Positions 14,457-60,310 of a stretch of DNA of 64,000 nt are shown one piece after another. Position numbers and translations under genes: made by a program. Below the pieces are notes generated by a model. That model saw nothing but the letters and a program-made list of their open reading frames with translations, did not search any database and was not told the origin of the DNA. Within the stretch, counting starts at the first letter, position 1. Each line of letters begins with the position of its first letter. This DNA comes from Eucommia ulmoides (Eukaryota; Streptophyta; Magnoliopsida; Garryales; Eucommiaceae): assembly GCA_016647705.1 (NCBI GenBank), contig CM028328.1, forward strand, positions 7,264,114 to 7,328,113. The letters run 5' to 3'.

Positions 14457-17400
14457 TGATATCAGAGTTTGATTGCATCACCCGTTGACTTCAAAACCTC
14501 TATGGCCTCTTCTACCTTTTCCCCAATTACTTTTACTCATTCCATCTCTGTTAAACTTGAAGAGCAAAATTTTCTGCTCTGGAAACAACCAGTCTTCACT
14601 GCCATCAGAGGCCATCGCCTTCAAGTCTATATTGATGGATCCGATCCACCTTTAAATTTTTTATCTGATACTGATGTCAAATCTGGTAATGTAATCCTGC
14701 TTTTTCAAATTGGGATTAGCAGGACCACCTTCTCTTCTCATGGCTACTTTCTTCTATGAGTGAGTCACTGTTAACTCGGCTTGTTGGTTGTGACACTTCT
14801 TCTCAAGTTTGGTCTACTCTTGAGATGTACTTCACCACTCAGACCTCTACAAAGGTCTCCCAGCTGAAAACTAAACTTCAAACCACAAGCAAGGGTGATC
14901 TAATCCTAAATACCTACCTTCTTACCATCAAATCCCTTGTGGATCAACTTGCTTCTGTTAGCCATCGTCTCTCTGTCAAAGAACACATTGATACAATTTT
15001 TGAAGGTCTTCCTCAATCTTATGACACCTTCATTGTGTCTGTTACATCCAAGTCTGACTTATACACTGTTGCTGAAATTGAATCTTTCCTTCTAGCTCAA
15101 GAAGCTCGTATTGAACGCCACAGTCAACAGTTAGACATTAATGCCTCAGCCAATATGGTTCATAGTACCTCATCTCACCAAAAACGTTTTGACTCTTCAT
15201 ATTCTCAATCTTTTGGGTATCCTCATTTTCGTCCTCCACACTCAAGATCTCGAGGTTGTTTATACTCTCCTTCAGGGGGAAGACGTGGTGGTAGATCTTC
15301 ATGGTCCAACAATTCTTCTAGTGGCTCCAACAGACCACATTGTCAGATCTGTGGCAAGCCTGAACATCAGGCCTATAAGTTCTATGAAAGGTTCAACAAT
15401 GCTGTGCAAGGTCCTTGGCAATATCAACGACAATGGTCTTGTTCCCAGCAACCCTTGTTTGCACTTGTTGCCTCAGCTAAGTCCCTCACTGATACCAACT
15501 GGTATCCAGATTCTGGAGCTTCTAACCATTATACTCTTGATCTTCACCATCTTGGCATATCTGAACCTTACCGTGGCCACGAACAAATCCATGTCGGTGA
15601 GGGTTCTGGTTTAGAGATTCAAAACATTGGTTAATCTTCTTTTTCCTCTCATTCCTCTCCCAAAGTCCTATTTCTTCATAATCTTTTGCATGTTCCTAAA
15701 ATTACCAAAAACCTCGTTAGTGTTTCCAAATTTACTCAAGATAATCATGTATTTTTCAAGTTTCATGCTGATCTTTGTTTTGTTAAAGATCAGGTCACCA
15801 AGAATATTCTTAAGGAAGGGAAGCTTAAAAATGGCCTCTATGCTTTTGCTTCTTCAAGCCTGTTGCTCCAATCTGTCTCAGCTCAGCAATACAGCTTCAA
15901 GCCTACTTCTCCACTATCTGTTCAAGTTACTCAATCTTGTCGTAACTTTACTTCTGTTAGCAAATTATGGCATTAGAGGCTTGGCCATCCCTCAGCCAAA
16001 ACTTCGAAAAATGTATTATCTACTTGTAATGTTCCTTTCAGTCATAATAAAATCATCCTTGATTTTGTTCTGACTATTGTTTAGGGAAAATTCATAAGTT
16101 CCCGTTCCTTAATTCCACTACTGTTTATTCACAACCTCTCGAACATTTTCACTCGGATCTCTAGGGCCTTTCTCCTGTGTTATCCTCTTGTGGTTATCGA
16201 TATTATATCCATTTTGTTGATGCACATACTTGTTTCACTTGGGTTTACTTGTTGCAACACAAGTCTGATGCATTTACCATCTTTCTCAAGTTCAAATCAC
16301 AAGTTGAACTTCAATTTGGTTTACCAATTAAGAGCATTTAATCTCATTAGGGTGGAGAGTACCAGTCCTTCACTGATTATCTTGAATCCAATGGTATTAT
16401 TCACAAACTAGCTTGCCCAACCACACATAAACAAAACGGGGTAGCTGATAGGAAGCATAGGCACATCATTGAATTAGCTCTTACTCTTCTTGCTAATGCT
16501 TCTTTACCTTTTAAATTCTGGGATGAATCTATTCGTACTGTAGTGTATCTGATTAACCAGCTACCATCTTCTGTTTTATCTGGAAAAACACCTTTTCAGG
16601 TTCTTTTCAACAAACCACCTGACTAGCCAACTCAAGGTGTTTAGCTGCTCCTGTTTTCCTACTATCAAGCTATATAACAAGCATAAGTTGCAGTTTCGTT
16701 CTTTGGAGTGCACATTTCTTGGCTAAAGTATAAAACATAAAGGTTACAAGTGCGTGGACCCCAAGGGCAGGATCTACATCTCTCGTGATGTCATATTCCA
16801 TGAACACAATTTTTCCTATGCCACTAAGCCCCCTGATTCCAATCCACCACCCTGTGTACCTGAGTCATCAATTAACCCAACAACTTCTCTTTCTCTTATT
16901 CCCTCACTACATAGTAGCCATCATGACTCCACTCCATCTCTAAACCTTCCCATGCCACCCTCTTCTTCACATCCTGTTGCAACATCACTACCTACTCCTC
17001 CTCATCAACCATCACCCACACCTTTACATCCTACTCCCACTTCTCCCATACCTGATACAACCATAGCACCAACCTCCTCTCTTGCTAATGCCCATGGTAT
17101 GCGAAATTGTGCCAAAGCAGAAGTTTTCAAGCCCAAAGTATTCATGACCAGCAAAAAACCATCTACAGTCACTGCAGCCCCTCTTATCCCTCATTGGAAA
17201 TCAGCTATGCAGGATGAATATTTGGGTTTGCAACGGAATCACATATGGTCTCTTGTTTCCCTCCCACCAAATCGAAAGCCTATCGGCTGCAAATGGGTTT
17301 ACAAAGTGAATGAAAACTCTGATAGAAGTATACACAAATATAAAGCCCGATTGGTCGCTAAGGGTTTTCATCAACTCCCTGGTTTTGATTTTACTAAGAC

Positions 17401-18711
17401 ATTCAGTCCAGTAATTAAGCCCACAACAATCCGAGTTGTTTTGGTCATTGTTGTATCTAAAGGTTGGAATATTCAACAACTTGATGTTAACAATGCATTC
17501 CTTAATGGCAAAATTCAAGAAGAGGTATACATGGTGCAACCACCTGGTTTTGAGGACAAGAGTGCTCCTAATGCAGTGTGCAGATTACATAAAGCCTTGT
17601 ATGGGCTAAAACAAGATCCAAGGGCTTGGTTTGACAAACTCCGGAGTGCTCTCACTGCTTTTGGCTTCACCTCCACTAAATTCAATCAGTCTCTCTTTAT
17701 CAAACACTCTTCTCATAGTACTTTGTTTGTCCTAGTATATGTCGATGATATTCTTGTTATTGGAAGTCGCGCCACAGACATTACCCAACTTGTTCAACAC
17801 CTCAACACCAAGTTTGCTCTGAAAGACCTTGGCTATATCAGCTACTTCTGATGGACTTCAAGCTGAAGCTACTTTTGATGGACTTTTGCATACTCAGAAA
17901 AAGTACATTACTGACCATATATGTCGAGCCAAGATGCAATTTTCCAATAGCTTACCCACTCCTATGAGTAGCGGTGAAAAACTCTCATTTACTGGTAGTG
18001 ATCCCACTCAGGACGTGCAACCTTACAGGAGCATCGTAGGAGCACTACAATATGTCATGATCACTAAACCTGAAATTGCTTAATCAGTTAATCGCGTATG
18101 TCAATTTATGCAGCAACCACTTGAATCCCACTGGAAAACAGTAAAGAGAATTTTGCGTTATCTCAAGGGCTTACTCAACTTAGGGTTGCATCTCACTCGC
18201 TCAAATCAACTTCAAGTCACTAGTTTTGGTGACGCAGACTGGGCCTCCAACCCTGATGATCGTAGATCTACTACTTGTTATTGTCTCTATCTTGGCAATA
18301 ATTTGGTCTCATGGTCATCAAAGAAGCAAAGCACAATTTCCAGGAGTAGCACCGAGGCTGAGTATCGAAGCATGACTGCATTAATTGCTGAAGTATCTTG
18401 GCTTCAATCTCTGTTACAAGAGCTACATACTGATCAAGTTAGCCCACCAGTTTTGTGGTGTGATAATCTTAGCTCTGTGTTGATGTCTGCAAATCCTATT
18501 CTTCATGCCAGGACAAAACACATTGAACTAGACCTATACTTCGTGCATGAGAAAGTTATACAAAAACAGATCATTGTCAAACATGTCCCCCCCTCTTGTG
18601 ATCAAGTCCCTGACATTTTTACTAAGGCATTAAGTAACTCTCGATTTCTTCTTCTTCGTGACAAACTTAGAGTTACAACTCACAAAGTATCCCACTCTAA
18701 GTTTGAGGGAG

Positions 18712-18891
18712 TGTTAGAGAATATTAGTTGTTATAGTTTGTTTTGCTTGTTGCATTCTGTTAGAGCTGTTAGTTGTATTTTGTTAGAGCTGTTAGAATGT
18801 TTGTTAGCTCAGCTCTCATTCCTCTTGTATATATATTGTAAAGATTGGTGAAATGAATTAACCTATCATAGAAGAATATTTCTCTCTAATA
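18712..18891 (+). repeat. 3' LTR of Copia-1
   Basis: 180 bp, preceded by the purine-rich tract and followed by target repeat CCGAG. Confidence 0.9.
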
Positions 18892-22804: not shown

Positions 22805-24910
22805 ATGAGGATGGCAAAACTAGAGAGAGAAGCTCCTAAAGCAAAGCTAAGCGAAATCACTTCGGAAGAAGAAGATGGGATTGAACGCAGCAAGAAGAAG
22901 ATCAAGAACAGCCATACTACTCCGGATCCTACCACTGAGATGGAGGAGTCGGATGATTCGGAAGAGGAAGAGGATATGGAAAATGAGGAAGAAGCAAGGG
23001 AGGAAACTGGGTTTCAAGTGATGTCGATGGCTCCACTTATGCATATCCAGACATCGCCTTCCATAAATATCCAGAATGAGATAACCATGCAAGACAAAGA
23101 AACCCCCATGCAACCGCAGATTAAATCGTTCAGAGACGCCTTAAAAGGGAGCAATGATCTTCCAAAAACAATTCTGGAGGAGGTTTACTTTGTAGAAAAA
23201 GAGGAGGACCCAATTGAATAGGAAAGCCCTTCGAAGGAGAATGAAACTGCTCAGGGGGAAGGCATTCCGGAAGTTTTCATATCGGACTCTGTTCTATCCC
23301 AAATCAGGGAAAGATGGAAGGACACACTCATTATCAGGCTCATGGGGAGATCAATTGGATACAAAATTCTCTGTGACAGGGCTAGGGCTATATGGAAACT
23401 ACAAGGTGACTTTGAACTCATTGATCTCAATTATGGTTTCTACTTAGCAAAATTTGATCGGATCACAGATGCGCATCGAGTGCTCACTGAAGGCCCCTGG
23501 GTGATCTTGGATCATTATCTAACAGTTAGAAAATGGGAACCGGATTTCAGACCGGAGTTTGCGACTGATTCCCGTACGGTTGTCTGGGTCAGGTTACCAA
23601 ACATTCTATTTGAATATTATGAATCCCCTATTCTATATAGCATCGGAAAGAAAATTGGGAGACCAATAAAGATAGACGGCAACACGGCGGCAACATATAG
23701 AGGCAAGTTTGCGAGAATTTGTGTGGAAATTGACCTCAACAACCCTCTAGTTGCTCGATTCCGAATGAGGCGGATGGTCTTTAGAATTGAACACGAAAGC
23801 TTACATGGGCTATGTTACAGTTGCGGGAGAGTAAATCACAGGATGGAGATGTGCCCATATGAAAATTCTAAGGTGGAGCAGAATATCACTTCGCCAGAAA
23901 AAAAGTGAGAAGCAAACGGAGAAGACAACCGGAGAAGGGGCCGGCAATCCAACGGGTGTGAACTCTGGGCTCGAGGCTATGTCCAATCAAGAAGTCAGTC
24001 CTCCAGTTGCAGTTAAGGTCCTAGGGGCAAATGAACCTACCGTGGTTTCGGATGAGGATGATGGGTATGGGCCATGGTTAGTTGTCAAGAAACAAAGGAG
24101 GTTTGGGAAGCCCAAAACAAAAAGGGACAACCAGGGCATAACAAAGGGGCCTAATAACAGTGGATTCTCTTATAGAGGAGTTGGGGAACAAGACAAGGCC
24201 AAGGGAGCCCAGGAAACTAAGCCCAGGAAAAATGGGCCCAAAGGGGATATTACCACAAAAGAGACGGGCAAACAGAAACAAGCCCAAGGGAACAAAATCT
24301 GGTCAACAACCCTAGTCAAAAGGGATGGTTCCAGAAGGCGTCTGGAACCAGGATGGTCATTTACAAAGGGGAGTCTCATCTTATGGGTAATGAAGGAGAT
24401 CGTGGGGCTCGAGAAAAGGAGATGCAACCTATTCCCAAGATCACGTCGAACGTCTTGATTGATCAAAGTAACGGCAGAGTAATGATGGGGGAGTCTGTGC
24501 AGAGACCGCCCAATCAATCAAACAAAGGTACTCTCGATCTTCTTTCCAGCCCTAAAGATACGGTCTACTCATCAAATTCGTCCAAAGCCACTCCATACTC
24601 AAACCCCACCCCAACTTCAACTCTGACCCGAAAATTGAAACCTCCAGACGATCAACTAAATCTGAGACCGAATTATGCAAGAGATATGAACAAGTCTCCT
24701 CCAAAACTGGCCGCTGTCGTTGCTATTGGAGAAAGAGGAGGATTTGATACAATGTGTAGAAGTGATCTTGATGATGGGAGAGGTAAGATTAACCATGGAA
24801 ATCATGGAGAATCAAGCACCAAGAATATCATCCATGAAAATGGTGATGGAAAGTGTGGAAGCATGGGACATGCTGGTGATAAGGTGCATGAGCCTTCTGA
24901 AGCTCAATAA
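22805..24910 (+). pseudogene. LINE ORF1: DUF4283-type protein with CCHC knuckle
   Basis: Starts at ATG 22805 with an acidic N-terminus. The DUF4283-like domain spans about 23280-23740 (DRITDAHRVLTEGPWVI, then YYESPILYSIGKKIGRPIKI). A CCHC zinc knuckle CYSCGRVNHRMEMC is at about 23815-23856. A YGPWLVVKK motif, usual after the knuckle in plant LINE ORF1, is near 24068. Breaks: an in-frame TAG at 23219-23221, a frame change near 23900, and a change back between about 24330 and 24450. Ends at TAA 24908-24910, 43 bases before ORF2. RNA-binding protein of the retrotransposition particle by family knowledge. Confidence 0.85.
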
Positions 24911-24953
24911 TCAGGCGTTTCTGTTTTCCCAATCTATCCCTCTTAATTTTTTT

Positions 24954-27900
24954 ATGCGGATCCTTGCCTGGAATTGTCGTGGTGCTGGTAACAACCAGTT
25001 CCAAAACTCGTTTCAGGACATCTTTAACTCCAAAAAACCTGATATGGTGATTTTGTTAGAGACTAAGGTGAACTTTGATAATATGGGGAATTTTTTTACT
25101 ACCTTGGGGCTGAAAGCTGTGACCTATATTGACCCTATTGGCCGGTCTGGTGGGATATGGATGTTATGGAACCCAGATGAAGTTTCGGTAAATCAAATCC
25201 ATGCCACTAACCAGGTGATTCATGCTAAAGTTACAAAAGTGGGTTTTGACAACTGGGTGCTTTCAGCTATCTATGGAAACCCAAACCCCAGTCGGAGAAG
25301 AGAACTCTGGGAAGAGATGAAAAGATTTTCCCAGATCAATGATTCTCCCTGGTTGGCGATGGGTGACTATAACGATATCTGTTCCCACGCCGAGAAATTT
25401 GGAGCTGCTAGTACACAGGACATTTGTCGCATTAACATATTCAATGCCAACATTTCCTTCTGTGGTTTGAATGATCTGGGCGCCAGCGGGCCTGCTACTA
25501 CTTGGTCTGGAATGGCTCAAAACGGGCTTCGGATCAACAAAAGGCTGGACCGTGCTTTAGCCAATGCTCAATGGTGTACCTCTTTTCCTAATGCTAGGGT
25601 GGAAAACCTCCCACGTACGTATTCAGATCATTCTCATATTCTCATTCATGCTCTTGGGATTAGCTTAAACAATTACTCCCGCCCGTTTAGATTTGAGGCT
25701 ATGTGGCTTGAACATCCCTGCTTCAAATCTTTTCTGGAGGATAATTGGTCTAACGAATACAGTAATTTGGTAAATAATTTAGATAACTTCAGAAAGGAAG
25801 TTCTCATATGGAACCGAAATGTTTTTGGTAACATCTTCAAAGTCAAGAAGCATCTTCTGGCTAGAATCTTTGGGATTCAAAGGTACTAGGACACTAAGTA
25901 TTCTAGCTGGTTAGATGCTTTGGAAAAAGATCTTAAAAATCAATATGCTGAGATTTTGCGCAAAGAGGAAATTCTATGGTACCAAAAATCTAGAATAAGC
26001 TGGCTTAATGTTGGGGATAAGAACACTAAATTCTTCCATGCTACTACTAATCAGAGACGTAGGAAGAATAGAGTGTCTATGATTAAAAATAATCACAATG
26101 AATGGCTGGATAGTTAGGAGGACATTAAGAACCATGTCAGGGGATATTTCCAGGACCTTTTCTGTAAAAACTATCCTGTGCAAATTAGCCCTCTCTTTGA
26201 CAATCAGCTCTGTGTCACCCCTATCCAGTCTAGTGATCACCCCTTCCTTTGTTCGGTACCAGATGATGGGGAGATAAAATTTAACTTATCTAATATGGGG
26301 GACCTTAAAGCCCCAGGCCCTGATGGCTACCAAGCCATCTTCTATAAAAGGAATTAGGAGAAGGTGGGTAAAAACCTATGTGATTTTGTTAAAGCCTGTT
26401 TTAATGATAGGAATTTGCCACCTAAGATGAATGAGACATTTATAGTTCTTATCCCCAAAGTTGATATTCCAGAAAAAATCAACCAATTCCGTCCGATTAG
26501 TCTATGTAATGTGCCTTACAAATTGATTACAAAAATTCTGGTTACTAGACTAAGACCCTACTTGCCTAATATTATTGGTCCCTTCCAAAGCAGCTTCATT
26601 CCAGGCAGACAAACTATAGACAACATTATTATTGCCCAAGAAATTATTCATAAACTCAAGAAATCTAAGAGCAAGAAAGGGGGAATGACCTTAAAAATAG
26701 ACTTAGAAAAAGCTTATGACAAATTGAATTGGGAATTCCTTGAAAATACTCTTGTATTCTTCAACTTTCCCTCTAATTGGATTAATCTTGTTATGAACTG
26801 TGTTAGGAAAGCTGTGGAGAGAGTTCTTTAGAACGAGGAACCCCTTGAGGAGTTTCCTCTCAAAAGAGGTCTCCGTCAGGGGGATCCCCTATCCCCGTAC
26901 TTGTTTGTTCTATGTATGGAAAGGTTATCTCTCCTGATATCTGAAGAAGTCTCAAAAAAAAGGTGGAAAGGCCTAAAAGTGGCTAAAAAGGGACCTGTTT
27001 TATCCCACCTCTTTTTTGCTGATGATATTCTGTTATTTGCTAAAGCTGATAAAGAGACTTGCAGGGCTATTCAAACTACTTTCGAGGCTTTTTCTGCAGC
27101 TTCTGGTCTGACTATTAACTTTGATAAATCGAAATTGTTTGTTGCCCCTAGAGTCAACAATTCACTTGCTCGGGACATTAGCAATAAATTAAATATCCGG
27201 TTGTGCAAGGATTTGGGAACCTTCTTAGGTACCTCTCTCATTTTGGACAGACTAAAAGGGAGTCAGGTTAATGTTATATTAGAGAAAATGCAAAAAAAAC
27301 TCTCTAATTGGACAGCTAAAAATTTATCTATAGCTGGACGTGCCACTCTGATTAAGTCAGTGCTAACGTCGATTCCTTTATATTATATGCAAACCATTCC
27401 CCTTCCCCTGTTATTTTGTGATAAGATTGACAAACTGGTCAGAAGCTTTCTCTGGGGAGATTCGGAGGGTTGCAGGAAATACCACCTTGTCGGCTGGGAT
27501 AAGGTATGTGCTCCTACTAGCATGGGAGGCCTAAATATTAGAAAGGCCAGACTTATCAATGCTGCTTTTATGGCTAAACTCACTTGGAATATTACGTCGA
27601 AAAGAAAAAACTTACTGTGGGTTGATGTTTTTATGAATAAGTATAATATTGATAGGAACCCAAAAAATTGGAAGAAACATATTGGTGGATCTCATATTTG
27701 GAGGGGAGTTTTTCATTCCCGCCCCATCATTGCCAAAGGTATTAAATGGAGAATTGGAAATGGTGTTAATGTTAACCTTTGGACTGATTGGTGGTGTGGA
27801 AATGGTCCCCTAGGCAATGATGAACTCCAACAAAATTTTGATCTTAAAGTTGCCGATATTTTGGATGATTCGGGTAGTTGGTTTCTTCTGCCAATCATTC

Positions 27901-29048
27901 ACCTTGTTTCGGATGATCAAGTCAATGACATCCTGAGTTCTGAGCCCCCAAATTTTTTGGAAGAAGATGTAGCCATCTAGCTTCCGGAAAATTCGGGAAA
28001 ATTCACAGTTAAATCAGCCTATTCTTTAGCTGCGAATTTCAATGCTCCTAATTCCACTCTCAAATGGGAATGGATTTGGAAGTTAAAAATACCGCAATCA
28101 ATTAAATTCTTTTTGTGGAAAATATTCCACAAGCGGTTATTGACAAATGAGACGAGAGCTAAATGGTCTATGGATTTGTCGGCTATTTGCAAGAGGTGTA
28201 ATGGAGCCACTGAATCCATTGACCACGCCCTCAAAAATTGCCCTAAGGCTTGGACTGTTTGGGCCATGTTCCTTGACAGGAATAGCTTGTGGCGCGAACA
28301 TGACATGAATATCCAAAATTGGATTGCTAAATACACCAAAGGAAAATCCATCAATCCCTCGTCATTTTACTTGTTTGTGGCTATCTTATGGAATATCTGG
28401 AAAAGTCGCAATAAAGAAGTCATTGAAGGGACCAATCTGGATTCCTACGTTGTCGCTTCCAAAATTAACCGTTGTGCGCGGGACATGTTGGAAGCGTTTC
28501 ATCCTCCCAAGTCCCACAATGGCACTATTTTTATTCCAGACACTAAATGGACTCCCCCTATTGCAGGTCAGATCAAACTTAATACGGATGGTAGTGCGCG
28601 TGGCAATCCAGGGAGAGGCGATTTTGGAGGGCTGTTCAGGAACAAAGAAGGGGTTTGGTTGATCGGCTATTTTGGGCATCTTAGCACTTGCACTAGCTTG
28701 GAGACAGAGATAAGAGGTATACATGCGGATATGTGCCTGGCGATTTCCAGGGGATTTGAAAGAGTCATAGTCGAATCAGATTCTCAGGAAGCCATCGATC
28801 TTATAAAAGGGGACTGCCCGGATACTCATCTTTTAAGATGATGGATTATGGACTGCAAATTCATCGCTGAGAATCATGACTTTGAGTTTCGTGCTGTTAG
28901 AAAAGAGAGCAATCGATGTGCGGACTTTCTCGCTCGAATGGGAACTAACAACATATCAGATATGCACTATCTTGAAGAACCTCGGGAAGGCATCAAGAGC
29001 ATCCTGCTAGCAGATATGGAGGTTGAAGGCATCTCGTCTAGTTGCTAG
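24954..29048 (+). pseudogene. LINE ORF2: AP endonuclease, reverse transcriptase, RNase H
   Basis: One uninterrupted frame from ATG 24954 (MRILAWNCRG) to TAG 29046-29048. The endonuclease has LLETK, GDYND and SDHSHIL. The RT domain has PISLCNV, LKIDLEKAYD, GLRQGDPLSPYLF and catalytic FADD (27015-27026). The zf-RVT region (about 28050-28250) has CKRC and DHALKNCP. The RNase H has NTDGS, ETEIRG and ESDSQ. Six in-frame stops break it: TAG 25887, 26115, 26355, 26829, 27978 and TGA 28839. There is no frameshift. Most stops sit where the family has Trp or Gln, so each can be explained by a single C-to-T or G-to-A transition. About 1365 codons, usual length. Confidence 0.92.
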
Positions 29049-42479: not shown

Positions 42480-45447
42480 CCCACATTCCCAACTTGTCTA
42501 AATTTTTTAAGAATATCTTATTTGAGAATGCTTTGGTGTGGATATCAATTAATTGATCCTCTGATTAAATCTTAGGTAATTCTACAATCTTTCCATTCAA
42601 CTTTTTCTTAATGAAAAATTTGTCGACCTCGACGTGTTTTGTACGGTCATGTTGAACTGGATTATGATGTCATATGATGTTTTATTGTCATAAAACAATT
42701 AGATAGGTTGTTGAGATAATTAACCAAATTCCTGTAAAATGAGTCTGAGCCATAATGTCTCATAGAGTATTTTTTTCAAACCTCTAAATTCAGTTTCTGC
42801 ACTTGAGCGAGCTACAACATTTTATTTCTTGCTTTTCCATGTTACAAGGTTACCTCCTAGAAAGGTAAAGTATCCAAAAGTAGACTGTCTATCACCTACA
42901 TCACCAACCTGATTAGCATCAATATAGGCTTATATGCTTTGATGGTCTGTGTTGTTCGTGAATAATACTCATTTTCCTGGAGCAGACTTTAGGTATCTCA
43001 AAATGCAAATAACTGCATTTATATGTTGTTCTCCAGGATTATGCATAAATCGGTTGACAATACTCAAAGCATAAGTTAGATCTGGTCTGGTATGAGATAA
43101 GTACAATAATCTCTCTACAGTTTTTGGTATCTTCATTTGTCAATTGGTACCTCGTTGGGCTCAACACATAGCTTTAAACCTTCTTCTATTGGTATATTAA
43201 CTGGTTAACATGTTGACATACCAATATCTTGTAATAGATTTAGACCATATTTTCTTTAAGATTAAACTATTCTTTTGTTAAATCGGGATACTTCAATACC
43301 ACGAAAATAATTTAGAGGGCCTAGATCTTTCATTTCAAATTCTTTGGACAAGTAATTTTGCAAGACCTTCCTGTCATTAAGATCATTCCTTGTAACCACT
43401 ATATCGTCTACATATACAATTAGCGCAATTATCTTACCTTACTCTCTTTTTAGGAAAATAGTATGATCTGAGTTGCTTTGATGGTAGCCAAAGGCTATCA
43501 TAGATTTTGTAAATCTTCCAAATCAAGCTCTAAGAGACTCCTTCAGCCCATACAATGATTTCTTTAGTCTGCAAACCTTCCAACTGTGTCTTTTGGGTAT
43601 CATGCATCTCGGTGGGAGATCCATGTAGACTTATTCAGATAATTGACCATGTAAAAATGTATTATTCATATCAAATTGTTGTAAGGGTCAATCCAAGTTT
43701 GTAGCTAAAGACAACAGAACATGAATTGTGTTAATTTTGGCTACAGATGCAAATGTTTCTGTGTAATCAATCCAGTAGGTTTGAGTGTATCCTTTTACCA
43801 CCAATCTCTTTTTAAAGCATTCAATTATGTCATCAGCCTTGTACTTCATGATGTAAATCCACCGACATCCAACTCGTTTCTTTCTTGATAGAGGATCAAC
43901 TAATTCCCATGTTTTATTTTTTTTTTCCCAGAGATTTTATCTCCTCGTTCATAGGTGCTTTCCACCTAGGATTAGATAAGCGTTCTTGTACACTGTTAGA
44001 AATAGATACAACAGATAATTGATTCACAAATAACATATTTGATTCTGACAAATGATGGTTAGACACGAAATGACACATGTGATATTTCACTTTAGTAGAG
44101 AGTTCAGGTTCATATGTGGATTTAGGAATACCTCTCATGTAATGTAGTGGTAATTATCTTCTGTGTGGCTCAGGAACATCTTCAGTAGATGATTGGTGTG
44201 ATATGTCGACCGAGAATGGAGCCATATTTTCTAGAATCTCAGTTTCTGGCTGAGTTGGAGATAAATCCACATCTTCAGTTATTGGGTGCTGATCACTTAC
44301 TTCTTTGATTATTCGGTGCTCATTACCATTTTGATCTAATGTCATACCACTTAAGTCCAATTCACCCATTTTATCATTTATTCGAGTCTGTGAGTCATCA
44401 CCACTAGAATCCAACGTCATACCAGTTATATCTTAGTTGCCCACATCTTGGTTATCATATTCTAGACTTTGAATTTTCTTTTGGTACTCCCCTTGAAATT
44501 TAGGTTTGGAGAAATACATTATATCTTCATGGAAAACAACATCCGTAGTGATAAATAATCGTCATGTTGGAGGATGATAGCACCGATATCCTTTTTAATG
44601 TGTGGCATACCCAACAAAAGCACATCTCAATACTTGAGAAGTTAACTTGGTGCGTTGATGGTTATGTAGATGTACAAACACCACATATCCAAAGACATGA
44701 GGAGGTAAACTTGAGACAGATGGAGCCACAATCCCATTATTGAGAGTTTGGAACGATGTTTGGAAATTGAGGGTGTTGGAATGTACCTGATTGATTAAAT
44801 AAGCTGTTGAAGTTAAAGCTTCTCCCCAATAAGACAAAGGTATATGGGCTTCAATTGGTAAAGCTCGAAAAACTTTGCTCGGCTACTCCATTTTGCTGAG
44901 GTGTGGTGGAGCAAGTTGTGTGATGGATCATTCCTTGTGCTTACAAATAATGTTGAAATTAAGTACTATGATATTCTCCACCATTGTTATTGCGAATAAC
45001 TTGAATCTTTCTATTGTACTGAGTTTTAATTCTTTTATCAAATTTTTGGAGTATTGAATTCACTTTACTTTTAGATTTCATCAAGTAAAGCCATGTCATC
45101 CTAGTACAATCATCAATAAACGTTATAAACCAACTGACCCACCCAAAATAGTGACTTTCGATGGACCCTAGACGTCAGAATGAATAATCATAAATGAAAG
45201 TTAACTTTTATTCAACCGTAATGAAAACGAAGCATGATGGCTTTTTGCAAATTCACAAGTATCACAGTGAAAACTAGAAACATCGACTCCAGTAAATAAA
45301 CTAGGAAATAATATTTTGAGATATCCAAACGAAGCATGTCCAAACCGGCGATACTATAACCATATTTTTTTTCATCTTCAGAATCAGCTACTGCCAGAGC
45401 TTATCGTTGGCTTTCAGTACTTTTTGATTTAAAGTCCAAGTAATATA

Positions 45448-45738
45448 CACTACAAGATAAAATACTTTTCATCACGCTTAGTAAATATAATTTATCTCGG
45501 TTTTTTAATAAACTGTGATTATATAATTATACATGACATTTAATCTCATTTGAAAACAATTGTGTGATAAAAAAAATCTTCTTATCTCATAATTTTAATC
45601 AACTGTGATAGTATGTAATCCGTTTTCACCACGGTTTTTTTATTTTAATGGAGATAATAAGTTTCTTTTCACTTTTTTTTTACTTGTTAAATCCAACATC
45701 TCTTCATTCACTCCCATACCCTAGAAACCGCACAGCCA

Positions 45739-45777
<39 letters not shown>

Positions 45778-48700
45778 GATCGATGTAGCCTCTCTTTCTC
45801 TCTCTCTCTCTCGAAATCGACATCACAACTTTGGGGATCTCTCTATCACCTTCGCCATCGCCATCACAGCTCTGGCGATCTTTCATCTCGAAATCGCCAT
45901 CGATCTCGAACTCAAAATCGAAATCGCCATCGCAAATTTGCCATCGCCATCGCTAAGTTTTCTCTCGATCTCGAAATCGCTGAGTTCTCTCACTCTTGAT
46001 CTCACTATTGATTTCTCTTTCTTTTTCTAGTACTGCTCTATCACAGCTTCCGGTGTTGTTCCCTTGGTGTAGGAAGATCGCAGTCAATCCGCAACTGTGA
46101 AGCATCCGGCCAACGATGAAGTCGTCTTCAGCAGATGCTACCTCAGATCCGTGGCAGTTCGAGCTTCGTGGTTCAATCCATGCCTTCAAATCAGGACGTC
46201 GTGCTCCATTTTCATAAGCTCCTTCTTCTGAAATTTAATTTCTACTTCAGGGTTTTAATTTAGATCTTCATTGTCATTGAAAATACGTTAAATACCATAA
46301 TTGTTAGTGTTAAGATCTTTTAACATCGTTTAATGGTTGTTTGAAATGTTTGAAATTCAGAACTGAAGATGAATGTGAAGGATTCCTTTGTGCTTTCTAT
46401 CTGATTCTCCTCCCTACTTTTCAATTGTTCTTTTTTATTCGTCCTTAACTAATGGTTGATTCATATGATTATGATGTACAACACCAAAGAAGGAGGATGA
46501 GCTTTGAAAATCTCTGAATAATGCTAAAAATTCCACTTAATATATTGATGGATACTGTTATGCTTTTGTCTCTTGAATTAGGCTACATGACTGCATGTCA
46601 AGATAAATTTCCAATGAGAGAACAGATTGGAATAATGAATTCTACCTAATTCAATTATGTTTACAACTCCCTATTTTTCTTTCAATCACAGGTGAAGGTA
46701 CTAGCCTGCTTCACCTACACAGTACATATCATCATGATCTCAAAATATATAGTTCAGATGAGGGTCGTGTACAGGTTAGCTTCTGGACCCTGAAATACAT
46801 GTTTATGTTGTTATGAGAGCTGATACCAAATTGGTTGTTTGGGGTCTTCTTGTTCCCAAATACCCAAATAGTTTTCTGTAAGAAGGCTGCACATTTCAAA
46901 ATCAGATTTTATGAGTCCCATAGGTAAAATTAAAATATCACTCCTTTGGTTTATTCCCTTGGGTTTGTGTATTATGAAGGGAGGGTATGAGGAGTGTGTG
47001 TCTACCACTGTTAGTTTGGGGCACATTGAGGTTGTATATAACAGTACAACTAAGAGGTGATTTCTCTCTTATATCTTACTTTTGAATTGGATGCTTCTAT
47101 GAATTTTTTGGATTTGTTTGAGCTTTTCTCCTATTTGTCCTTCAAAATTTCAGGGTATTTGTATTTTGATCTTGATTTTCCAATTGGGTGCTTGAATTTC
47201 CTTTTGTGCATGTTCCTTGATCTCCATTTTCATTGTGCAACCTGTGAGCATATCCCTTTATTAACTCCATGACTTTGAGTTGTGTATGCCTTACATTTTT
47301 AACAAACGTTTGCAGCAGAATTTGCTAAAGGCCTTATTGTCTTGAAAGGACAATTAACACCGATCTTGGTATTTGAAGTTGTTTGATTTCTCTCTTGTTC
47401 TGTTTATTCATATAACTGAGATGGCTGACAATTTTTATTTTAAGGTTTCACTAGTTAGCAAGGACTCCTCTATGTTGATGGACTTGACAATGCTAGTATT
47501 GAGATGGAAGATGTAAAGGTTTTTGTTTTTCATTTACCTAGTTCCAACGTATTGTATTATATTTGTGTCAAAAATCAAAAGGTTAAATTGATGAAAATTA
47601 TCATATCCATCAACTTTGAACATCATTTGATTTTGGTTGAATTAAGTTTGACATGTAGCATACAAGTTATATGTTATAACTCATTTCATAGTTATTTCTT
47701 CTACAGTTCTACCCACTTCTTGCCTCCATCATGCCTAGACTAGTTTGGTTCCTTTTTTTTTTTTTTTTTTTATCAAGGATTACTCATAGAGATATTCTAA
47801 AGTGAAGAATCAACGATGGCTTTCTTGATTGATCAAGAGTAGCACATTATGCTTGTGCCCCTTGTAAAGGGAGCGGTGTTAGTATCAATAATCCAGAAAA
47901 ATGCATCCAATAATTGGTTCAATTTCAATTGTAGTGTAAATTTTACGTGAAAATCTAAATGAGCATCAATTTTACCCTAATGTTTCATCAAGTAATTCAA
48001 TTTAGTAGGGGAAAATGGTTATTATGTTTTAATTAGGTGTTAAGGTATTTAGAAGTAAAAAATTTAGGTCGATTGCATGTTCTATTTTTCTATAGTAGTG
48101 ATTCTTTTCCCCATCTTTTTCCCCAGACTCATTTGAATGAGATGATAACTTCTGAAGTGAAGACAATTCATAATGGCGGATCATCTGGAAACCCTTGGAT
48201 GGTTGATGGGGCTGGACTTCTCCCAAATGCTTCTCAACTTCTGCCTAAACTGGTAATAACTCTTGATATGTCTTGTACTGCTACCTAGTTTCATTTGTTT
48301 ATACTCGGAAATCATAATCCTTGATAAAGAATCAGTTATCTATCACATGTTTTATTTCGACTAATTCAGGGCTACTTTATGCAATTATAATATGTAATAT
48401 CAACGCTAGTTTGCTTCAGAGTCCTAGCTTTCAAAAAAATGGTTAGGAATTGCATGTTAAGAAGAAAGAATGAAATAATGTAAGTGAACGAGAAAATTTT
48501 CTTTAGTTAATTGACCTTTGGTTTGTTTTCCTACTTTCAAATCTTTTAACTAGGTCAAACTGACTAAAAAGGTCACCGAACAAGTGAGACTACTTGCCAA
48601 GGATGAAGATGAGAAACTTGCAGAGACTGGCTCATATGATGTAATACCTCCATATGATCAAGCAAGGGCACTTGGTAAAACAAATATAGATGTTGATCGT

Positions 48701-49239
48701 ATTGCTGTTGGATTACCCTGTGGCAGTGAGAGTTTCTTTTTGATGTTTGCTCGGTGGAGAAATCTTGAAAGAGACTTGTATTTTGAACGTAAAGGGTAAG
48801 TGTTTATGCTATATGACATTAGTTGTTTTAGAAATATAAAATTCATTTTTAGCTAATTTTTGGTAGTATTTTTTTTTATATAATAGTGCTGCGTTTCTTT
48901 TCTCTTTTTGTAATTTTTTTTTTAATATATATATGAGAAACCATCACAGTTTTTAAATGTAATAGAAAATAGGAAACTATCTCGGTTTGATACAAAACTG
49001 AAATAAATATTATCCAAATAATCATGTTTTTTTTAAATTTCATCACATATATATGATATTTTAATCACATTTGAAAACTGAGATTATATGTACTAAGCAT
49101 CTCGGTTTTTAACTGTGATAAAAAGTCCTCCATCTCGATTTTTAACTGTGATAGAAAGTCTACTTTTAATCACACCGCATACTATCACGGTTTGATTTGG
49201 GACCAAAAACAGTGATAAAACGCCATTTTTCTTGTAGTG
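45448..49239 (+). mobile_element. CACTA (En/Spm) non-autonomous element carrying VIH gene exons
   Basis: Starts CACTACAAGATAAAA and ends TTTTTCTTGTAGTG, the canonical CACTA terminal repeat, with 3 bp target duplication ATA (45445-45447 and 49240-49242). Subterminal regions repeat AACTGTGATAG/ATCTCGGTTTTTAACTG-type words on both sides (45480-45650 and 48950-49220). No TnpA/TnpD-type gene is seen. The middle is filled with host-derived sequence: a (CT)n leader-like region (45740-46200) and five exons of an inositol pyrophosphate kinase gene. Confidence 0.9.
46692..48795 (+). pseudogene. Captured PPIP5K/VIH (VIP1-type inositol pyrophosphate kinase) exons
   Basis: Five exons with introns kept. 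(1) 46692-46774: [14 protein letters not shown]. (2) about 47316-47368: EFAKGLIVLKGQLTPIL. (3) 47445-47518: VSLVSKDSSML, then a one-base loss shifts the frame. (4) 48127-48252: THLNEMITSEVKTIH and DGAGLLPNASQLLPKL. (5) 48554-48795: [50 protein letters not shown]. Introns have GT donors and AG acceptors. These match the histidine-phosphatase-like half of plant VIH1/VIH2, which make and break inositol pyrophosphates in phosphate signalling. The N-terminal ATP-grasp kinase and the rest of the phosphatase are missing, so this is a transduplicated fragment. Confidence 0.88.
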
Positions 49240-49870
49240 ATAGGTTCCCCCGTCTAATACCACAACTAATCGTCATCCTGGTTTTGTTGTTCTTAAACAC
49301 AAAAAAATCAGGCAAAAAAATTACAACATAAGATAAAGTAGTGGTTATTTGAGAAACTGACAAAACGGTTATAATCTAAAGATAGAACAACTAAGACAGA
49401 CTCTAAATTTAATGTACTGGTGAGAGTTAAAGATCCTTCCCCAATAACTGAGGTCGAAGTTCCATTTGTAGTTGAGACAAATTTTTGGGTGAAGTGATTG
49501 AGTGGTGAGATTTTTCTAGAATTATTTGTTATGTGATATGTTGTACAGAAATCAATTATTCATGCATTATTCAAAACATGTGTAGAAATGTTTAAAACTT
49601 TACTACCATTGTCTACAGCTATTACCAATGCTGAGGCATTGTCAATAATTTCATCTTCTGTTTTTCTTTTTTATTTATTTTTTATTTATTTTTTTGACAA
49701 CTACTGCAGTGGAAGGCTATTGGTGATTTTTATTCGCGCAACTATGATCCTACTATTTTGGATCGCCCACCAGTTCAAAACAATAACTTTTGGTATGGCC
49801 AATCGTATGGCAATAAGTACATTTGCGTAAAGACTTGTCAACACCGGTGAATCTACCATTGTTAGGTTAT

Positions 49871-56269: not shown

Positions 56270-57121
56270 TCAAAACCTAAATGAATCCCCATAGTTGCTC
56301 CTCATACTGTAGTGATCAAACTTCCGGTCCCCGCCGTAATCCTCCGCCCCTGCCGCCGGTTTCACCTCCCCGAAAACCGCCTCACCACCGTTGCCGGCCT
56401 TCCGGTGATGCTTCGGCCTTTCTTTCTGACTCTTGGACCTCACTGGAGCCTCCCCAGAACCACCGTAATACTCCGAAAACTCTTGCCGTCTCGAAGACCT
56501 ATGCTTTGGATCTTTCAAACTGGCCGATCGCATTTTCACCGGTTTGTTAATTTCTTGATAATTTTCTGACAAATTCGGGTTATGGACATGCCGGGTTTCG
56601 ATTATCGGAGACGGGTTTCGTTTTTTTTGGACCAATGGGTGCCCATTTTGATCGTCTTCGGGCATAATAAGGGAGTCTTTTAATGGGGTGAGGTTGTTTT
56701 TGGAGGGTTTTGGTTTGAATCGGAAGGGGATGAAGTTTAGAAAGAGAGTACCCAAAAATTCGAGCCCGAGCTTGGAGAGGTCGATGATGAGTTGGCCGAA
56801 AGATGGCCAGACCGCTTCTTCTTCAGTGTTTATTGATTCCACGATCGGAGGAGTCGGTTTCTCGTGAATTTGTTGTTCGTGAGATTCGATCCCAGCCGTC
56901 GGCTGTTTTTGCACCTGGACATGTCGCAGATTAAGGTCAAATGGTTCAAAACATACTCATTGTCATCCCTAAAATGGACCGTAAACAGATAGAAGATGAA
57001 CAATGGTGTAAAGAGTTTATATATTACCATTCTAGAGATAAAGGAGGGTCCAAATCCTTGGCGAAGCATGCAGGAGGCATATCTTATCAAAACAGCACCA
57101 ATCACCATAAAAATATCTGCA
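56270..57121 (-). CDS. Conserved host gene, last exons, function unknown
   Basis: The last exon (about 56914-56270) is open for 214 codons to a TGA: basic C-terminus, a hydrophobic segment (LSKLGLEFLGTLFLNFIPF) and the stretches VHNPNLSENYQEINKPVK and MRSASLKDPKHRSSR. Upstream, an exon at about 57121-57038, bounded by TTTTGCAG and a GTAATA donor, encodes a hydrophobic piece (MVIGAVLIRYASCMLRQG). Its phase joins to the next exon after a 123-base intron ending TGTCCAG. The 5' exons were not found, because an inverted-repeat element and SINE lie upstream from 57230. Codon content, splice signals and lack of stops suggest a host gene, perhaps 5'-truncated. I do not recognise the family. Copy A at 13859-19054 is dead. 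Confidence 0.6.
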
Positions 57122-57800: not shown

Positions 57801-58979
57801 ATATAATTTTCCAAAAAAAAAAAAAAGTATCTTTCTTGTGCTTGGCATGTATGCAAAATGGGAGAAGAAGGAAAAACAAGTGGTGAAAACTACCCATTTC
57901 CGATTTTGAACATTCCTCCCGAACAAGAGAAAAAAAAAGAGGAGGAAAAATGGGTTTTTCCTCGAATGATGAAAATTTCGTCCTTCCTAGTTTTTAAGGC
58001 TTCCATTTTCGAAACAAACAGAGCATAAGTCACTAGGGTGGCATTTGGTTTGTTTCTAGTTCCGTGTTTCTTTTTCCCTTCCTAGGATTGAAATTTGGGA
58101 AATGAGAAAATATATATGTATGTATGATTATGTTCCCGAATGTTTAGTACAAATTTTAGGAAACATATAATTTTTGTTTCTATTCCAAACTATGAAAAGA
58201 AACAAAAGAACAGAAAACGGAACAGTGAACACTAAGGGCCTATTTTGTTGTATAAATTATTATTTTTTAGAAATCATCTTATATTTCGAATAACAACAAC
58301 AATTAAGTATTTGTTCCACTTCAGTAGGGCCGGCAACATGAATCTGTTTACACCATAATGATCGATCAAAGGTCATCCCCTCAGTTAATTTCAATGTCAT
58401 CAATTCAATTCTAATAGTCGCATCCCAAGTCTTCTTAGGCCTACCCCTATATCATCTTATATTTTAGATCTCGACCATATATATATAGATATAAATGGGA
58501 CACATTTTCTCTTCAAATCTGGTTCTCTTTCTATTACTGCATGTTGGAATATTTTTTATGGGCTAACATTAATTGAATTAATTGTTTTACAAAAACGGGT
58601 TAATGACTAGTTTATTATTTTAAGCAGCTCAAATAATAAGTGATCATATTTTGATATGGGTTGTGGCATCTTTTATGTAGAAGCTCAATTAAGTGATAAA
58701 TGTAGGTTTAGGGTTTCGTTGAAATTCGTTATGGGAGAGCTCAACGTGAAAACCCTAGTATATATAACTAGATCCCCTCCTTAATCTAGAATATAGGGTT
58801 TCTTTCCATTGAGAGCCGCCACCACGAAATCTAGATCATAGGGAGGAAGACCTAGTTAATAATCCGCTGCAACAGATTCAATCTCCTGTGATGGTTGAGA
58901 CAGGTACGTTTTCGATTACTGTTCTTCATTGTTGTGTCCTATAATCCATATATGTTTACGATTATTAATTAATTTCGTT
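57801..58979. other. Interval with possible hAT scrap and possible LTR piece
   Basis: No gene seen. About 58033-58245 has loosely inverted ends (GGTGGCATTTGG, GTTCCGTGTTTC; right side CAGTGAACACTAAGGGCC). About 58542-58905 begins TGTTGGAATA, contains TATATATAACTAG and a leader-like run, and resembles a copia-type LTR with promoter. The primer site was not found, so this stays tentative. Confidence 0.35.
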
Positions 58980-60310
58980 TTATTATACTTATGTAAAATA
59001 ATCAACACTACATACTCAGATGCAGACTGGGCTGGTAATGCTCTAGATCGGAAGTCCACCTCTGGTTATTGTGTTTATCTTGCTTCTAACCTCATTTCTT
59101 GGGGCTCTAAGAAGCAACAAACTATGGCATGCTCATCTACTGAGGCAAAATACAAGTCCATGGCAAAAACTGTTGCTGAAGTCAGTTGGCTGAAATATTT
59201 ACACCAAGATCTTCATGTTGTTCTTTTTCACACTCCAATACTATGGTGTGACAATGTGTCTACACTTCATTTAACTACTAATATGGTCTTTCATGCCAGA
59301 ACCAAACATATAGAAGTGGAATATCATTTTATTCATGAGAAAGTTATGGCTAAGCAACTTCAAATTGGTCATGTTTCTTCTTCAGATCAGATTGCAGATG
59401 TGTTCACTAAAATTTCGTCTATTTCTCAGTTTTACTTGCTCAAAGACAAATTCATGGTTCAACTACTCATAAGTTTGAACGGGAATGATGAGAATATTCA
59501 GTATATCAGTTCAAAAGATTTCAAAAACACTGCAACTAATTCTACTTAATAGTTTGTTGAGTTGTTAGTTATAAGTAGTCTATATATACTCCCTTCTAAG
59601 GGTATTCATAGGGCTGGCAAAATAGGTATTTATACGATGACACGACACGAGACCGACACGAAATTAGCAAGTCTAGGTTTTGCTTATCAGGTATCGGATC
59701 GTTATCGTGTGAAACCCGATAACCTGATAAGAAATAATGCAGGTTATCAGGTTGACCTGATAACCAATACGTTACACGATAAGATACGATAAGAATTTCG
59801 TGTATTCAGGTTACACGATAACCTGTGACTCAATAGGTTACCCGTTAATTTAATAAATTATTTTTACACTCCCAAATTATCAAATATTACAAATTAGTAC
59901 TTAATATATATAATAATTTGTTAAGATGGTTTTAAATTAACAGATTAACAGGTCGTTAACCGGTCATTAACGTATAATGGGTTAACGTGTAATGGGTAGA
60001 TTAATGTATAATAGAAACCTATCAGGTCTTATCATGTCGTGTTTACCTGATAGGTTTTGTGTCATCGTGTGACACGAAAAATTATCGTGTCATGTCGTGT
60101 CGACACGATAATTTTCGTGTTGTGTTCGTGTTTGAGTAGTCTGACACGATAAGCTTATCGTGTCGTGTTCGTGTTTGGGTCTTATCGTGTTTCGTGTTAT
60201 CGTGTAATGACCTGTTACATGACCTGTTACCTGTTTTGCCAGCCCTAGGTATTCATATGTAATCAATAAAATTGAATGATGATTCAATCTTCTTCGTATT
60301 CTCTTGTTTA
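58980..60310 (+). mobile_element. Copia-4: 3' fragment of a Ty1/copia element
   Basis: RNase H region (about 59018-59450) with SDADWAGN, STEAKYKSMA and DQIADVFTK motifs, then about 0.1 kb of terminal sequence interrupted by a hAT element. It resumes with an AATAAA signal near 60265. Gag, protease, integrase and RT are absent. The fragment itself has few breaks. Truncated fossil. Confidence 0.8.
59609..60247. mobile_element. hAT-type MITE nested in Copia-4
   Basis: Perfect 8 bp target duplication GGTATTCA (59601-59608 and 60248-60255). The TIRs are 19 bp, TAGGGCTGGCAAAATAGGT and ACCTGTTTTGCCAGCCCTA, with one mismatch. The interior is dominated by TTATCGTGT/ACACGATAA words in both orientations. 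639 bp, non-coding. Confidence 0.9.

Follow-up and report, generated by a model that had tools for sequence, protein, structure and literature searches.

Within a 64,000-nucleotide stretch of Eucommia ulmoides DNA, the whole of which we call the window, five plus-strand segments between positions 46692 and 48795 read as consecutive sequence of the VIH/PPIP5K phosphatase domain, and they lie between two sequences resembling the ends of a CACTA transposon. The locus thus raises the question whether these exons are part of a host gene or were brought to this place inside a mobile element. An earlier note on the same DNA had proposed that a CACTA transposon captured five VIH/PPIP5K exons here, and its count of five captured segments is borne out by our analysis. 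The features on which the following argument is built are collected in Table 1.

Table 1. Coordinates of the element, its ends and its cargo; position 1 is the first nucleotide of the window, and a dot stands for features without assigned strand.
Feature	Position	Strand	Remarks
Whole non-autonomous CACTA element	45448..49239	.	3,792 bp; TIRs, TSD, copia on either flank
Left target-site duplication (TSD), ATA	45445..45447	.	
Right target-site duplication (TSD), ATA	49240..49242	.	
Left terminal inverted repeat (TIR), CACTACAAGA	45448..45457	+	
Right terminal inverted repeat (TIR), CACTACAAGA	49230..49239	-	
Left sub-terminal repeat region	45458..45660	.	Units like TATCTCGGTTTTTTAATAAACTGTGAT; inner limit approximate
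Right sub-terminal repeat region	48930..49229	.	Inner limit approximate
GC-richer, C+T-rich leader-like module	45661..46230	.	Limits set by eye
Probable captured VIH intron 5′ of exon 1	46231..46691	+	Ends in acceptor TTTCAATCACAG; composition intron-like
Captured VIH exon 1	46692..46774	+	
Captured VIH exon 2	47306..47368	+	Homologous acceptor AG lost, reads AA
Captured VIH exon 3	47445..47518	+	One base lost, frameshift
Captured VIH exon 4	48127..48252	+	
Captured VIH exon 5	48554..48795	+	Open throughout, 81-codon ORF

Elements of the CACTA kind typically carry a 3-bp TSD, and the ATA duplication that had been reported for this element is present on either side of it. The ends had also been described as perfect, which holds for the first 10 bases, where the inverted match is exact, but not for the longer arms of 28 nt, which are 79% complementary. 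Exact copies of CACTACAAGA, counted on both strands, occur twice in the window and coincide with the two ends of the element, with none elsewhere; the mean expected number is 0.14, and two copies were reached in 1 of 100 shuffles. When one mismatch is allowed, the window contains nine matches, seven of them outside the element ends, against a mean of 3.5 expected. As a control for chance pairing we drew 300 samples from a first-order Markov model of the window, which yielded one convergent exact pair at a distance of 0.5–20 kb and no instance of a 3-bp flanking duplication beside a chance pair. Inside both ends, sub-terminal repeats such as ATCTCGGTTTTTAACTGTGATA occur in direct and inverted order, and all three exact copies of AACTGTGATA in the window fall within the element. 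Compared with itself, the element gives a sole match at E ≤ 0.01, a pair of direct copies of 31 bp in the sub-terminal regions. When the right sub-terminal region is folded as a single strand, the z-score is −1.96, with 5 of 100 shuffles equally good or better; as this only slightly beats the shuffles, we do not claim a hairpin there. The element thus combines a TIR starting with CACTA, a 3-bp TSD and direct and inverted sub-terminal repeats at both ends, the features of the CACTA (En/Spm) superfamily, the last of them following the definition in the available text of PMC8978399. A search for a second copy in the rest of the window returned 12 matches at E ≤ 0.1 with lengths of 20 to 60 bp, none of which is element-like.

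The surroundings of the element are those of a decayed copia retrotransposon on the minus strand, in which the element sits between the Pol_BBD (polyprotein beta-barrel domain) and the integrase. To its right, Pfam recognizes Pol_BBD with an E-value of 5e-6 and 27.2 bits versus a cut-off of 27; to its left lie an SH3-like domain (E 9e-9), which exceeds its cut-off, and the integrase core rve, which does not (E 5e-4). The minus-strand order Pol_BBD, rve, SH3 is what we take to be the domain order within one copia element. Stops and frameshifts interrupt this copia copy, its three domains lie in different frames, and two of the six flank pieces compared with Pfam gave no match, including the peptide adjoining the left end of the element. 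If the flanks are joined and one TSD copy is removed, a minus-strand open frame of copia-like polyprotein sequence spans the site, which on its own is a weak test because a 3-bp duplication leaves the frame unchanged. The matching TSD together with copia sequence on both sides indicates that the whole unit was inserted here as one piece, and hence the CACTA element entered the copia copy as one unit. Since both flanks are copia retrotransposon, the VIH exons end within the element; a continuation of the exons beyond 45448–49239, the finding that the earlier note had named as speaking against its reading, is not seen.

Further repeats and open frames are found elsewhere in the window. Another copia element lies on the plus strand at 14720–18851, with Retrotran_gag_2 at 14720–15634 and RVT_2 with an SH3-like domain at 16727–17851, and in this copy SH3 and RVT_2 adjoin. 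A LINE-like element on the plus strand (23222–28841) carries DUF4283, a weak zinc knuckle, an endonuclease, RVT_1, zf-RVT and RVT_3. To the eye, the ORF at 58899–59549 is similar to the RNase H tail of a copia element, and its best Pfam hit (E 0.12) stays below cut-off, while a 228-codon open frame on the minus strand at 56270–56956 looks like an exon of a host protein by eye and matches no Pfam family at E ≤ 1.

The identity of the cargo is best seen when the segments are read together. Their joined translation matches the Pfam family His_Phos_2 with an E-value of 1.5e-8 and 34.9 bits versus a cut-off of 23.6, covering profile positions 84–212 of 354; exons 1 and 2 alone reach 2.8e-4 in the same test, and exons 4 and 5 taken alone give no meaningful Pfam match. 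Aligned to Arabidopsis VIH2, a comparator sequence not taken from a database record, the cargo scores 274 bits with 146 of 198 residues identical (74%) over residues ~525–720. The numbering of this AtVIH2 comparator was compared with 12 residues given in the available text of PMC11836120: anchored at C696, all six further residues within reach fit (K598, R722, D724, T726, H741 and E882), and the remaining five (K498, G500, G501, H505 and H975) lie outside the comparator stretch. A human PPIP5K2 segment, likewise not taken from a database record, aligns to the cargo with 91 bits and 67 identities in 195 positions, and none of 200 shuffles exceeded 23 bits. The human segment in turn matches the solved chains 9grn, 9gro and 9grh in the PDB at E-values of about 2e-5, all three being named inositol hexakisphosphate and diphosphoinositol-pentakisphosphate kinase, and it therefore belongs to the right family. 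These comparisons agree with the previous statement that the translation matches the phosphatase half of VIH1/VIH2. Judged by these comparators, the element contains what reads as host coding DNA, one of the features of a Pack-CACTA element.

Several other searches for relatives gave no match or one that was discarded. Searching PDB sequences with the 195-residue cargo returned nothing at E ≤ 1, and a 74-residue piece of it matched only two sequences of the unrelated Tako8, a hit we rejected, as single stretches fail to pass. For exon 5, none of 16 pattern matches in IMG/VR contigs and none of 78 in prokaryote genome contigs was confirmed, neither collection being meant for plant genomes. Rfam found no match at gathering scores over the whole window.

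The VIH exons are still separated by their introns, and the claim of the earlier note that capture took place at the DNA level, rather than through a retro-copy, follows from this retention. The same note had called the GT-AG introns intact, which is correct for three of the four complete introns, where GT and AG stand at the homologous places, but not for intron 1. The latter ends with ...TTTTTAACAA before ACGTTTGCAGCAGAATTT, with AACAA where the homologous exon 2 starts, and its acceptor AG is absent; the first AG after this point stands 10 bases into exon 2 and shifts the frame. At the outer borders of the captured stretch, the acceptor of exon 1 and the donor of exon 5 are canonical, and from the acceptor and composition of the sequence upstream of exon 1 we regard 46231–46691 as probably a further captured VIH intron. 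The one-base loss in exon 3, from which it had been concluded that the copy is not translated in full, is real and switches the VIH reading from frame 47430 to frame 47432, and the lost exon 2 acceptor adds a second break. Moreover, the cargo differs at 11 of the 74 columns that are identical between the two comparators, AtVIH2 and human PPIP5K2; ten of these changes fall in exons 1, 2 and 4 and one in exon 5, three of them replace arginine by histidine, and they may have arisen either before or after capture. To judge from these lesions, the VIH cargo is decaying inside the element.

In comparison to plant VIH1/VIH2 proteins, with which it shares the exon sequence for residues ~525–720, the fragment lacks the kinase domain, the RHxxR motif (372–376), H741, E882 and H975, and its frame is broken; RHxxR and E882 are given here as AtVIH2 residues named in the available text of PMC11836120. 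A functional VIH/PPIP5K phosphatase would be expected to show RHxxR and E882 in a continuous open frame, and neither the residues nor such a frame is present. A VIH2 phosphatase domain carrying an RH/AA change retained residual activity in vitro, as reported in the available text of PMC6731061. Even so, with an interrupted frame and the greater part of the phosphatase domain absent, phosphatase activity of this fragment appears very unlikely. The element's cargo as a whole would seem to be without function.

To the left of the VIH piece lies a sharp-edged module, absent from the earlier note, which is C+T-rich, contains TCGCCATC-like repeats and resembles a gene leader. It has a GC content of 0.465 and a CpG o/e of 1.21, compared to a GC content of 0.235 on its left side and 0.299 on its right, where CpG o/e is 0.29; the short left end beside it has a CpG o/e of 1.38. 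No second captured coding gene was recognized in 45661–46230, as no Pfam match there exceeds the curated cut-off. Weak matches to DUF3915 (0.004) and Atrophin-1 (0.013) fall in a low-complexity minus-strand frame below the cut-off and were set aside. The module may derive from a second captured gene, as its 5′ end, or be a 5′ leader belonging to the element itself.

Among the ORFs overlapping the element that have at least 40 codons, 40 in number, Pfam recognizes no transposase family. The below-cut-off matches in the element's ORFs (Pannexin_like 0.0019, RamS 0.095, PH_PRMT_N 0.2), as well as one to Arteri_env (0.02) in a frame running across the element's right border, were set aside as chance. 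In the CACTA superfamily, it is established that non-autonomous elements are moved in trans by a transposase that recognizes their ends. Taking the evidence together, we consider it highly probable that the locus holds a Pack-CACTA element which is non-autonomous and moved in trans, and whose VIH sequence was captured at the DNA level and is decaying. An autonomous CACTA element at another place in the genome would supply the transposase that recognizes the TIRs and sub-terminal repeats and moves the 3,792-bp element by cut and paste. A lone copy is no proof that the element has ever transposed together with this cargo. The element would have taken up genomic DNA with five consecutive VIH/PPIP5K exons and their introns and would then have inserted into the resident copia retrotransposon, and its cargo would have decayed, presumably in this order. 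Capture itself may have proceeded through fusion of neighbouring elements or through faulty gap repair, between which one copy cannot discriminate; fusion of neighbouring insertions is put forward as a capture route in the available text of PMC8903248 and described for Pack-CACTA in that of the review PMC13317346.

Similar elements have been characterized in other plants. The capture of gene fragments by CACTA elements is described for Chenopodium (PMC8978399) and for Arabidopsis and maize (PMC8903248), and an intron-keeping capture for soybean (PMC1947982), in each case as far as the available text of these sources goes. The soybean element Tgm-Express1 likewise has CACTA-family inverted repeats around host exon and intron stretches with canonical splice sites kept. 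However, it measures 5.7 kb, carries fragments of five unrelated genes and resides in intron 2 of the expressed gene F3H, whereas the present element measures 3.8 kb, carries one recognized donor gene plus the module 45661–46230 and resides in a broken copia copy. It departs from Tgm-Express1 in cargo gene and site and is of the same kind. With the Pack-CACTA elements of Arabidopsis and maize, as presented in the available text of PMC8903248, it shares a TIR starting with CACTACAA, the TSD, host coding DNA and the lack of a visible transposase domain. It resembles the Chenopodium CACTA-like elements in harbouring a captured fragment within an element with sub-terminal repeats, but in the latter, according to the available text of PMC8978399, the fragments lie upstream of a transposase-associated coding region, and none is seen here. 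A limited literature search found no report of VIH capture.

Other readings of the locus have to be weighed against that of a decaying cargo. The VIH fragment might have been at the locus already, with CACTA-like ends flanking it by chance or through two separate insertions. The matching TSD and the copia sequence on both sides indicate insertion as a single piece, and no chance pair with a TSD arose in the 300 samples, which leaves this reading scarcely credible; an origin from two insertions is nevertheless a matter of degree, since the proposed capture route itself fuses two neighbouring insertions (available text of PMC8903248). Alternatively, the element could give rise to a chimeric transcript in which the module 45661–46230 is spliced to the VIH exons and from which a short protein is made. 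The leader-like module upstream of the exons, the 81 open codons of exon 5 and the splicing of Tgm-Express1 cargo exons into host transcripts (available text of PMC1947982) would all fit. On the other hand, the exon 2 acceptor is lost, exon 3 is out of frame, the fragment has no catalytic motif and the module no Pfam match above cut-off. In addition, all isolated Tgm-Express1 transcripts are said in the available text of PMC1947982 to have started at the promoter of the surrounding host gene, whereas the surroundings here are a broken copia. We therefore regard such a transcript as very unlikely.

The VIH piece could also be a working regulatory transduplicate whose transcripts or small RNAs act on the donor VIH and hence on phosphate signalling. 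In maize, siRNAs are reported to arise from captured donor-gene sequence in Helitrons, Pack-MULEs and Sireviruses (available text of the review PMC13317346), and deletion of VIH1/2 results in constitutive phosphate-starvation responses according to that of PMC6731061. However, the cargo does not form an inverted repeat with itself and it is decaying, the small-RNA idea applies to transduplicates in general, and selection may remove siRNA effects on essential donor genes, as the available text of the same review points out. To us this makes a working transduplicate decidedly improbable. The wider proposal is that the element or a sister family is transcribed and that the resulting small RNAs or chimeric transcripts adjust the donor VIH, which would place a transposon in phosphate signalling; this we consider highly improbable.

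The element that we describe as a Pack-CACTA carrier of VIH sequence thus looks like a clear instance, though an ordinary one, of the transposons long known to capture genes. An action of its small RNAs or transcripts on the donor gene, if shown, would be the sole thing to raise its importance. It adds one more case, with well-defined borders, of a CACTA element whose cargo is a contiguous, intron-bearing stretch of five exons from a central nutrient-signalling gene. It is also a warning for annotation, as these exons could be called a VIH gene or pseudogene, yet the copy is transposon cargo.
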